Assembly (NCBI GenBank): GCA_003712055.1
Contig: RHLJ01000002.1
Span: forward strand, 248,001 to 312,000
Source of the DNA: Balneola sp.
GTDB taxonomy: Bacteria; Bacteroidota; Rhodothermia; Balneolales; Balneolaceae
Length of the DNA stretch: 64,000 bases
Reading direction: 5' to 3'
Position numbers and translations under genes: made by a program. The notes under the pieces are model-generated. The model was not told where the DNA came from. It was given only the letters and a program-made list of their open reading frames with translations, and ran no database searches. This document shows positions 36,502 through 40,411 of the stretch, piece after piece. Within the stretch, counting starts at the first letter, position 1. The number at the start of each line of letters is the position of its first letter.

Positions 36502-36885
36502 ATGTCTGGTGGCGGAGGAGGGGGAAGATACTATCCCCCAAGAGATTCTAATAGAAAAAATGGAAATAATGCTACTGGTTCAAGCCAAGGAGGTTCTACA
36601 GGTTCAAGTTCGATTGATTGTAAACAAATTTCTTTTCAAACAAATGTTACATCACCTGATCCCGATGTACTTTCTCGAATTGTAGTTGGGAATTTACTTT
36701 CTGTTGGGTTAAGTAGTGAAAACGGACCGATAATAGTCTCATTTAATGCTCAGGTTCTTGGCTCAATAACAAACTATAGATATATAGATCTTAAAAGATG
36801 TATTAATGAAGGATATTCCTATATAGCTGAGGTGATAAATATAGATGGGGGTACTTGTAGTGTTAGAATTTATAGTACAGATTGA
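36502..36885 (+). CDS. Small protein with N-terminal poly-glycine tail; possible conjugation substrate
   Basis: 127 residues. The first 38 are a flexible tail that opens MSGGGGGGRYYPPRDS and is rich in Gly, Ser and Asn. Residues 39-127 form a compact beta-rich domain (CKQISFQTNV, LLSVGLSS, GPIIVSFNAQVLGSI, CINEGYSYIAEV) with a HIRAN-like rhythm. I know relatives of this shape from defence loci but not a named family. It is the first gene of the island, joined to the PfkB-NDT gene by a TGATG overlap. The exposed poly-Gly start next to a QueC-like gene makes it a candidate acceptor for nucleobase conjugation; that is inference. Confidence 0.75.
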   Translation: MSGGGGGGRYYPPRDSNRKNGNNATGSSQGGSTGSSSIDCKQISFQTNVTSPDPDVLSRIVVGNLLSVGLSSENGPIIVSFNAQVLGSITNYRYIDLKRCINEGYSYIAEVINIDGGTCSVRIYSTD

Positions 36886-38093
36886 TGATTAATGTAATAG
36901 GGGGAGTTTACTATGAAAACTGTAGGTATCCCTATTGGGATGAGATTTATGGTTCAGGTTTAAGAGCAGCTATTGCAATTTCTGAGCTATCAGATGAAGT
37001 CGTTCTAACATCTCCAATAAAGAATGAACTGATATCAAAAATCTCAGGAATAGCTGATTCTTTTGGTATTAAATTGAACCCCATCTATTCAGAAATATTA
37101 GTAGAGTTTTTTTACTTACATGGTTTATCTGCACCTACAATTTTCCCCGATTTAGGTATCATTGAAAAAGAAACAATACATATTGAAGGAGAAAGGATTT
37201 TACAATATGGTATACTCGAAAATGATGTTATAGTAGATGGTGAGAAAGTTGTCTATGATCCTCAATCTCCATTATCACCCAAACATTTTGATGAAAATGG
37301 ATCAAAAGCCCAGGAGCTCGCAATTGTACTTAATGAGTCGGAAGCCAAATTTCTATCTGGTGAGTCAGATATTGTAATTGCAGGAAATAAACTTCTTGAG
37401 AGGAGTCAGGTAGTAGTGATAAAACAAGGGGCATTTGGAGCCAAAGTATTTGAGACAGGTAAAGATATTGTTAGTGTTCCTGCTTTTAAAACAGATAGAA
37501 TTTTTAGTATCGGTTCTGGCGATATTTTTTCTGCTGTCTTTGCCTATTATTGGATTGAACAATCTAGTTCCTCTTCTGAAGCAGCACTTTTTGCTTCCAG
37601 AGCAAGTGCTTATTATTGCAATTCCAAATTGTTGCCTCTTGATGAAAAATACTTAATTGATCAATTTAGTTTCGAAGAGTTACACCCAATTCAAAGAGAT
37701 GATTCTTATGAATATGACATTTATTTAGCTGGACCTTTTTTTTCAATTCAAGAGTTTTGGTTTGTAAATGATGTTCGGCTTTGTTTACTGAATATGGGTT
37801 TGAAGGTATTTTCACCAATTCATGAAATTGGCTTTGGTGCTGCTGAATATGTTGCTAAAGAAGATTTAAGGGCTCTCAAGAAGTCTAAAGCTATTTTTGC
37901 ACTTTGCGATGGTATGGATCCTGGTACTATTTTTGAAATTGGTTACGGAAAAGCTAATAATCTACCAGTTTTTCTTTACTGTTCTCATGAATTGGATCAT
38001 AATACGACAATGTTTGAAGGAACAGGTTGTGAAATACACGAGGACTTGACTACTGCACTTTATAAAGTAGCTTGGAAAATTTTTGAAGGATAA
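36885..38093 (+). CDS. PfkB-like sugar kinase fused to nucleoside 2-deoxyribosyltransferase
   Basis: 402 residues from the ATG at 36885 (a TTG one codon earlier is also open). Residues 1-260 are a PfkB/ribokinase fold: YGSGLRAAIAISELSDE, KQGAFGAKVF and the anion-hole/catalytic motif GSGDIFSAVFAYYW. Residues 275-402 are a nucleoside deoxyribosyltransferase: YDIYLAGPFFS, GLKVFSPIHEIGFGAAEYV, FALCDGMDPGTIFEIGYGKA, with the catalytic Glu in FEIGYG and Asp in DGxDPGT. It could free a base from a (deoxy)nucleoside and phosphorylate the sugar or the nucleoside. It is coupled to the genes on both sides. Confidence 0.85.
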   Translation: MINVIGGVYYENCRYPYWDEIYGSGLRAAIAISELSDEVVLTSPIKNELISKISGIADSFGIKLNPIYSEILVEFFYLHGLSAPTIFPDLGIIEKETIHIEGERILQYGILENDVIVDGEKVVYDPQSPLSPKHFDENGSKAQELAIVLNESEAKFLSGESDIVIAGNKLLERSQVVVIKQGAFGAKVFETGKDIVSVPAFKTDRIFSIGSGDIFSAVFAYYWIEQSSSSSEAALFASRASAYYCNSKLLPLDEKYLIDQFSFEELHPIQRDDSYEYDIYLAGPFFSIQEFWFVNDVRLCLLNMGLKVFSPIHEIGFGAAEYVAKEDLRALKKSKAIFALCDGMDPGTIFEIGYGKANNLPVFLYCSHELDHNTTMFEGTGCEIHEDLTTALYKVAWKIFEG

Positions 38094-38685
38094 GTCAATA
38101 TTACTACTTTCGAGCGGTTTGGAATCAACTGTTCTCGCATATACTCTAAAACCAAAGTATGCACTCACTATTGACTATGGACAAATTTGTGCTGAGTCAG
38201 AAATTAAGGCTTCAAGTAAAATTTGTGAACAATTTGATATTCAACACTTTATATATACTTGTAATCTCAAATCACTAGGTTTTGGAGAGTTATTCGGTGA
38301 AAAAAAATCAAGTCTTTCTGGATTGTTAGAATGGACCCCTTATCGTAATCAATTTTTATTAACTATTGCTTCGATGTACGCAATCAAAGTAGGTGTAGAA
38401 AAAATAATCATAGGCACCGTAAAAGATGATGAATCGTATTCAGATGGTCGGAGTTTATTCTTTGAGCAATTTAATGCCTTATTAAAATGCCAAGAAGGTG
38501 GTATTCAGGTTATGACTCCGGGAATTAATTTGTCATCATTTGAAATGATCAAATCAAGTGGGATTTCAATTAACATTCTTAGATGGGGATTTTCATGTAC
38601 TAAGCATAAGTATGCATGTGGCATTTGCCGAAGTTGTTTAAAAAAGCAACACATACTTGAAAAATTAGAAACAGAACAATATTAA
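38083..38685 (+). CDS. QueC-like ATP-dependent deazaguanine enzyme
   Basis: 200 residues; the start is TTG at 38083, inside the 3' end of the upstream gene (11-base overlap), with no better start in reach. The PP-loop is LLLSSGLEST where true QueC has SGGxDS. TPYRNQFLLTIASMYA, IIIGTVKDDESYSDGR and the zinc knuckle SCTKHKYACGICRSC are all QueC-like. QueC makes preQ0 from carboxydeazaguanine; the divergent QueC relatives Cap9 (type IV CBASS) and QatC act in defence. No other queuosine gene is here, so this belongs to the defence branch. Confidence 0.85.
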   Translation: MKDKSILLLSSGLESTVLAYTLKPKYALTIDYGQICAESEIKASSKICEQFDIQHFIYTCNLKSLGFGELFGEKKSSLSGLLEWTPYRNQFLLTIASMYAIKVGVEKIIIGTVKDDESYSDGRSLFFEQFNALLKCQEGGIQVMTPGINLSSFEMIKSSGISINILRWGFSCTKHKYACGICRSCLKKQHILEKLETEQY

Positions 38686-38689
38686 AAAA

Positions 38690-39238
38690 ATGAATCTAGC
38701 TGAATACTACGATTTAAAGAAGCAGATAATAGAGATAGGTTTTAAAAGCGATTTGGATTACATAGAAAGTTGTTTGCAAAACCCCTGTTCGAGTTCTGAT
38801 GAATTTGCATATGAATATATATGGGTTGTTCTGAATTCAGGATTAAAATATCAGGTTGCTTCTAAAATTTATCCCAAGATTATTGAGGCTTTAAATCTCA
38901 ACATTCCAGTAGAATATATTTTCAATCATTCAGGAAAAGTTTCTGGAATAGATTTTGTTTATAAAAGTAGGAAGAGACTTTTTGATTCTTTCTTGTGTGT
39001 TGACGATAAAATCTCATATTTGGAAACACTTCCTTGGATTGGGGCAGTTACTAAATACCATTTAGCTAGAAATCTAGGAATTAACGTATGTAAACCAGAT
39101 CGTCATTTAATCAGAATTGCGAATAAATTCGACACTGAACCAAGTATATTATGCCAAACCCTTTCTGATTTAAGTGGTGATTTAGTCGGGATAGTGGATT
39201 TCGTTCTATGGAGTTGCGGCAATCAAAGATTGTTGTAA
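38690..39238 (+). CDS. HhH-GPD DNA-glycosylase-like protein
   Basis: 182 residues. The helix-hairpin-helix LETLPWIGAVTKYHLARNLG is followed by KPDRHLIRIA, which keeps the catalytic aspartate of the endonuclease III/OGG superfamily. The lysine of bifunctional members is not at the usual hairpin position, and the C-terminal iron-sulfur cysteines of endonuclease III are absent. It is smaller than housekeeping glycosylases and matches the type of Cap11-like HhH proteins of type IV CBASS. The start lies four bases after the QueC-like stop. Confidence 0.75.
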   Translation: MNLAEYYDLKKQIIEIGFKSDLDYIESCLQNPCSSSDEFAYEYIWVVLNSGLKYQVASKIYPKIIEALNLNIPVEYIFNHSGKVSGIDFVYKSRKRLFDSFLCVDDKISYLETLPWIGAVTKYHLARNLGINVCKPDRHLIRIANKFDTEPSILCQTLSDLSGDLVGIVDFVLWSCGNQRLL

Positions 39239-39246
39239 CAATAGCT

Positions 39247-39729
39247 ATGACTGACGATCAAAGAAAAGAGCTAAGAGATTATGCATGGAACTATTTTATG
39301 GTTCATGCAAATCAAAGAATGAGCCTTCTTAGATTTTTTTTAATCGTAACAAGTATTTTTTTTGCCGTTTATATAGGGTTGAAAAACTCTGAAAACTCTT
39401 CTTTCAATGCAGGCTTAGTACCATTAGTACAAAGTATAATAACTTTTATTTTTTGGCGATTAGAGAGAAGAACACGGGAGCTAATCAAGGTTGGGGAAGA
39501 TTCGCTAAAGAAACTAGATGATGAGATAGAGAGTAAAGTAAAAAGTGGTTTTAAACAGCATTATAAGTTATTCGAATCTGATGACTTGCTACGAAAAAAT
39601 AGAAATAAATTTATTCACCAAGTTTTTTGGTTTACATCATATAGTAATGCGTTAAACATTCTCTATTTGTTAATCTGGATTGGGGCAATTGCCTTAATGT
39701 TGCATGAGTATAAATGGATTATTTTTTAA
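39247..39729 (+). CDS. Membrane protein, possible effector (W-x-Y-F-x-x-H-A-x-Q-R-M family)
   Basis: 160 residues from the ATG at 39247 (MTDDQRKEL), eight bases past the previous stop; the longer frame from 39208 would overlap the glycosylase. WNYFMVHANQRMSLLRFF leads into membrane segment 1, segment 2 is in LVPLVQSIITFIFWRLERRT, a charged helix follows (EDSLKKLDDEIESK), and a third segment lies near the end. I recognise this pattern from small unnamed membrane proteins, some in defence loci. Two or three segments plus a helical stalk resemble SLATT-type effectors; function is inference. Confidence 0.65.
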   Translation: MTDDQRKELRDYAWNYFMVHANQRMSLLRFFLIVTSIFFAVYIGLKNSENSSFNAGLVPLVQSIITFIFWRLERRTRELIKVGEDSLKKLDDEIESKVKSGFKQHYKLFESDDLLRKNRNKFIHQVFWFTSYSNALNILYLLIWIGAIALMLHEYKWIIF

Positions 39730-39823: not shown

Positions 39824-40411
39824 ATGAATGAAAGGGTTAACAGATTAATAAGTTGGGTATTCGTTTCAATTATTAGTCCAATTGTTATTTATAAAGGAAT
39901 TGAATGGGCTTTTGATTTATTAAGTGAAAATGAAATTGATATTACAACATATACATTAATAGGGGCTAATATATTCTATTTATTTCTTAGGCTAGTTCAA
40001 AAGATTTTAAGTAAAGATGGTATCATTGAAATGTCTGAACAATTCAGACCAAGCTCTGATATGCAATTTTATACGAACCTAGAATTGCACTCGTATAGCA
40101 GTAGACCAGGTTGCTTTAGTAATGGGCTAGGTTGCTTTAATGCAATTTTGCAATATTTAGATCACCTTCTATTAGCGTTTGGATCTATTCTAATTATTTT
40201 TGTTGTACCAGCATTATTAATAATTGGAGGTTTATATCCAGAAAATCCTACTCGAGCAATAAATTTTGCAACAATTTTTCTGTCTTTTGGCATTGCTTGT
40301 GTTTATTACTTTTTTAATAAAGAGAAATTCAAAACTCTAGCTGATAAACTTACATTCTTTTCAGTTACTGGATTACTTCCTGTATCAGTGATTAATTTTC
40401 TATTTATTTAA
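39824..40411 (+). CDS. Hypothetical integral membrane protein
   Basis: 195 residues, about five membrane segments (residues 8-28, 44-62, 107-131, 142-160, 172-193). A soluble loop between segments 2 and 3 carries two similar CFSNGLGCFN-type stretches around residues 95-105. No family is recognised. It is the last gene of the AT-rich island, 94 bases behind the other membrane protein in a very AT-rich gap, and may have its own promoter. Confidence 0.65.
   Translation: MNERVNRLISWVFVSIISPIVIYKGIEWAFDLLSENEIDITTYTLIGANIFYLFLRLVQKILSKDGIIEMSEQFRPSSDMQFYTNLELHSYSSRPGCFSNGLGCFNAILQYLDHLLLAFGSILIIFVVPALLIIGGLYPENPTRAINFATIFLSFGIACVYYFFNKEKFKTLADKLTFFSVTGLLPVSVINFLFI

Follow-up and report, generated by a model that had tools for sequence, protein, structure and literature searches.

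A protein with a predicted HIRAN fold and a conserved N-terminal tail as a candidate for tagging by a neighboring QueC-like enzyme

Background

Deazaguanylation of a protein N-terminus is so far known for one kind of protein, the cyclase (CD-NTase) of type IV CBASS, in which the QueC-like enzyme Cap9 conjugates 7-deazaguanine to the exposed Gly of an MGGS N-terminus (PMC11996544; PMC13279940). A similar modification has been proposed, but not proven, for QatB of the qatABCD system, which has a long disordered N-terminal tail with a conserved start (MGTS) and lies next to the QueC-family enzyme QatC (PMC13279940). A survey of PF06508 (Libby et al. 2026, PMC13329287) described a "cluster 4" of short QueC-like proteins with a CH(x)5CxxCxGCxK-type cysteine motif and a PfkB-NDT neighbor, and interpreted it as purine salvage. 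In the text examined, that survey does not mention the small partner protein or the SagB-type gene described here, and no earlier report of this partner was found in the papers consulted.

Operon and gene content

We analyzed a window of 64,000 nucleotides from Balneola sp. (GCA_003712055.1, contig RHLJ01000002.1, positions 248,001 to 312,000), in which the following features were identified (window coordinates).

36502..36885 (+), small putative tag-acceptor protein of 127 aa (MSGGGGGGRYYPPRDSNRK...), with a disordered Gly/Ser tail (36502-36618) and a domain of predicted HIRAN fold (36619-36882)
36505..36510 (+), codons Ser2-Gly3 of the conserved M-[S/G/T/C]-G start; Ser2 is the predicted N-terminus after Met removal and the predicted acylation site, the site of modification being inferred
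36885..38093 (+), PfkB sugar/nucleoside kinase fused to nucleoside 2-deoxyribosyltransferase (NDT), with both catalytic motifs kept (PfkB GSGD, Asp213; NDT Tyr280, Glu351)
38083..38685 (+), QueC-like ATP-dependent enzyme (PF06508 cluster 4, E 1.2e-25), the predicted N-terminal conjugating enzyme, with P-loop SSGLES, YGQ, RN, Asp121, and a four-Cys Zn site
38690..39238 (+), HhH/OGG-type protein of the kind found in type IV CBASS (PADLOC OGG, E 1.4e-33)
39208..39729 (+), membrane protein with a weak match to 8xMP (likely start 39247), a possible effector by inference
39824..40411 (+), second small membrane protein (weak SLATT_5 hint, E 0.01), whose membership of the system is uncertain

The two membrane proteins were not found in the other loci. 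The next genes outward on both sides look like carbohydrate-related chromosomal genes, as read from the sequence. The small protein was not matched by any Pfam, NCBIfam, or PADLOC family. The ATG at 36502, which opens the reading frame encoding MSGGGGGGRYYPPRDSNRKNGNNATGSSQGGSTGSSSIDC..., is the only ATG/GTG/TTG start available upstream of the domain in that frame, and thus the N-terminus is not a start-codon guess, although it has no clear Shine-Dalgarno sequence. The stop codon overlaps the start of the next gene (TGA/ATG at 36883-36887), and the protein is probably translationally coupled to PfkB-NDT.

Distribution of related loci

A profile search with the QueC-like protein retrieved 264 relatives in the GTDB contigs, of which 80 were fetched, and 8 close ones on viral contigs, besides plasmid copies. 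In 107 loci from Proteobacteria, Bacteroidota, Planctomycetota, Cyanobacteria, haloarchaea, and prophages, the order is small protein, PfkB-NDT, and QueC-like protein, with gaps within 60 nt in 105 at each junction; the exceptions inspected are contig edges, broken frames, or duplicated modules. Four loci (L075, L086, L088, and L097) have a QueC domain fused to PfkB-NDT and/or a second small-protein/PfkB-NDT pair downstream. Among the haloarchaeal small proteins (L007, L014 (362 aa); L119, L120), those of L007 and L014 have a very long acidic tail, and several carry two copies of the domain. The distribution is patchy, with the locus present in 2 of 59 order relatives, about 6 of 394 sampled Bacteroidota, and 3 of 393 in the haloarchaeal phylum sample. 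Neighbors include PARIS, AbiE, TIR proteins, restriction-modification (including type I), Dam, and dGTPase genes. Annotated phages hold no full-length PfkB-NDT relative.

Conservation of the N-terminus

The sequence-only reading had proposed that the poly-glycine N-terminus (MSGGGGGG) of this protein is a natural acceptor for a deazaguanine base attached by the QueC-like enzyme, and that a lack of conservation of the N-terminal glycines would refute this. The proposal passed this test. With starts chosen by ribosome-binding site and not by motif, 94 of 97 homologues begin M-x-G with x being one of S, G, T, and C; two of the three others have an in-frame MSG start further down, and the third starts MSSG. 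After realignment, residue 3 is Gly in 96 of 97 homologues, and residue 2 is Ser in 87, Gly in 6, Thr in 3, and Cys in 1, whereas M[SGTC]G starts were found in 18 of 1199 other ORFs of the same loci (1.5%). Every residue seen at position 2 permits removal of Met by methionine aminopeptidase. Positions 4-39 vary in sequence and length. The proposal is supported with changes: the conserved element is a small residue followed by Gly, not poly-glycine or Gly after Met, and the residue after Met is Ser in the window and in most homologues. Modification at the C-terminus, as in C-terminal nitrile RiPPs made by an asparagine-synthetase-like enzyme (PMC13060819), was also considered, but the C-terminus of the small protein is not conserved.

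Predicted structure of the small protein

AlphaFold2 modeling with 72 relatives predicted residues 1-39 to be disordered (pLDDT about 50-65) and residues 40-127 to form a compact beta-rich domain (pLDDT mostly above 90), in agreement with the sequence-only reading. A structure search with this model identified the domain as a HIRAN fold, the best solved structures being 3k2y (Z 12.3), the HIRAN domains of HLTF (4xzg; Z 9.5, 2.3 A over 85 residues) and Rad5, and part of the Hachiman HamB. No Pfam HIRAN match was obtained in 72 members, and the assignment rests on the predicted structure. Two cysteines (Cys40 and Cys100) and Gly87 are invariant in 97/97 homologues.

The QueC-like enzyme

The model of the QueC-like protein (pLDDT 94) is closest to Cap9 from the Cap9-CdnD complex that carries the NDG modification (9nto; Z 21.5, 2.1 A over 174 residues), followed by canonical QueC (19.6 and 18.6) and QatC (15.3), and 9nto is also its best sequence relative in the PDB (E 1.2e-13). 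Asp121, the equivalent of the Cap9 Asp117 that reads the guanine edge (PMC13279940), is invariant in 98/98, and the SGGxDS, RN, and four Cys motifs are kept in the family, although the window's own P-loop is slightly altered (SSGLES). The two substrate-side aromatics of canonical QueC (Tyr131 and Tyr189 in E. coli) are mostly His (94/98 each), and thus the base or the reaction may differ; the stacking Tyr, His in most relatives, is Tyr in the window. The protein does not match canonical QueC (preQ0 synthase), scoring 76 bits against the TIGR00364 cut-off of 150.3 and having YSDG/HxDG in place of YPDC. A GSG[DE]xxG motif shared with 9nto is not present in the Pseudanabaena Cap9 described below, and it was not used as evidence.

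Substrate supply

The window's genome has adjacent queD and queE, which form 7-carboxy-7-deazaguanine (CDG), but no canonical QueC. The whole order shares this with or without the locus: in 34 genomes, QueE (with QueD where checked) and TGT (where checked) are kept, while no canonical QueC reaches the family cut-off, so the step from CDG to preQ0 in this order is unassigned. CDG should thus be available but is not dedicated to this locus, and one MAG carrying the locus has no QueE match. Two Rhodobacterales plasmid copies (loci L010 and L121) carry, just downstream, a gene of the preQ0/preQ1-transporter family (Vut_1) annotated for queuosine salvage.

Related acceptor tails

A type IV CBASS locus of Pseudanabaena has Cap9, TGT, a cyclase starting MGGSGGGFF, and a 2TM effector. 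The small proteins of two of our loci (L055 and L091) start MGGSGGG, and many others start MSGSGGG. In Rhizobiaceae plasmids (L153, L154, and L155), a related operon holds PfkB, a TIR-TGT fusion (frame broken in L153 and intact in L154 and L155), OGG, QueC, and a small ThsB-like TIR protein starting MGGGSSG or MGGGGGG, i.e., a similar tail on another domain. In this operon, the NDT half is degenerate and not recognized by Pfam while TGT is present; in the window type, NDT is intact and TGT absent. We read this as NDT and TGT filling the same slot, which is an inference.

Proposed function and alternatives

We consider it probable, in the absence of experimental evidence, that the locus is a QueC-based protein-tagging module, probably for anti-phage defense. 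In this model, methionine aminopeptidase exposes Ser2 of the small protein, and the QueC-like enzyme adenylates CDG with ATP and transfers it to the N-terminal amine, giving an amide-linked 7-deazaguanine at the end of a flexible tail (predicted +176.03 Da on the Met-less protein). The reaction, the substrate CDG, the defense function, and the roles of the other components are inferred. The HIRAN domain would provide sensing or docking (DNA ends, by analogy with HLTF and HamB), and PfkB-NDT would bind or process the tagged base in place of the Cap10/TGT protein of type IV CBASS. The sequence-only reading had suggested that the PfkB-NDT or HhH protein could remove or sense the mark; PfkB-NDT is more likely a binder or processor than an eraser, again by inference. 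The exposed residue is Ser, and not the Gly of the Cap9 and QatB substrates, which weighs against the model.

It is possible, though less likely, that the enzyme modifies the N-terminus with another carboxylate-bearing base or small acid, as is suspected for QatC. The replacement of both substrate-side Tyr residues by His favors this reading, while the invariant guanine-edge Asp (both residues are Thr in QatC; PMC13279940), queD/queE in the host, and the Vut_1 gene by two operons argue against it. Purine or nucleobase salvage, in which the QueC-like protein makes a free small molecule (amide or nitrile of a purine-like acid), PfkB-NDT processes the nucleoside, and the small protein is an accessory subunit, appears unlikely. 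It was proposed from the PfkB-NDT neighbor (PMC13329287), and the catalytic motifs of PfkB and NDT are kept; however, it does not explain a nearly invariant processed N-terminus on a disordered tail in a protein with no enzyme fold, and the patchy distribution, plasmids, prophages, and neighbors fit defense better. That the tail (28% G and 16% S) is only a flexible linker whose start is conserved for translation or stability is very unlikely, even though Gly and Ser codons are common near starts, because position 3 is nearly invariant while positions 4-30 drift in sequence and length, position 2 excludes Ala, Pro, and Val, which also allow Met removal, and related QueC partners with unrelated domains share the start.

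A SagB-type gene in most relatives

In 77 of 102 loci, a gene after QueC belongs to the SagB peptide dehydrogenase family (TIGR03605 in 30/30 scanned), with the best PDB relatives being CyaGox and BmdC, which are likely azoline oxidases. It occurs only where residue 2 is Ser (74) or Thr (3), and all 8 Gly2 and both Cys2 loci lack it (Fisher 1.5e-7 for G or C). This statistic was not corrected for relatedness, and an independent-pairs test had too few contrasts and gave no significant result. QueC normally uses ATP twice, the second time to dehydrate the 7-deazaguanine amide to a nitrile. A speculative possibility suggested by this pattern, formulated before the SagB identity was found, is that the tag in most relatives is matured into an oxazoline or oxazole. 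The Lys of the Lys-Tyr pair is not fully conserved, and the window itself lacks SagB, so its protein would carry the plain amide.

Comparison with known systems

If correct, the model would make deazaguanylation a general tagging chemistry in which one N-terminal tail is attached to a cyclase, a HIRAN domain, a ThsB-like TIR domain, or QatB and is read by exchangeable base-handling enzymes (TGT or NDT), and it offers a concrete alternative to the purine salvage reading of PF06508 cluster 4. The enzyme of the window belongs to that cluster, with the PfkB-NDT neighbor and the C(x)6CxxCxxCxK cysteine motif. Membership of type IV CBASS or qatABCD is not claimed, although the locus is inferred to work like them. 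With type IV CBASS, it shares a QueC-like enzyme closest to Cap9 in structure, an acceptor (here putative) with a Gly-rich disordered N-terminus, an OGG-type HhH protein, and a base-binding N-glycosyl enzyme; it differs in that no cyclase is present among the operon's ORFs, the operon has PfkB-NDT and no TGT-like Cap10 (the only TGT match of the genome is on another contig), residue 2 is mostly Ser, and many members add a SagB-type dehydrogenase. Compared with qatABCD, the small partner likewise has a long disordered tail and a conserved start next to a QueC-family enzyme; however, the QatA KAP ATPase and QatD TatD nuclease are absent from the operon and from the relatives' conserved neighbors, QatB is all-helical, and QatC has lost the guanine-reading Tyr/Asp and carries extra N- and C-domains, whereas this enzyme is minimal and keeps the Asp. 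The predicted domain fold is shared with HIRAN domains of HLTF, Rad5, HamB of Hachiman, and lp_0118 (Z 7.8-12.3), but here the domain is standalone and carries a tail of the tagged type.
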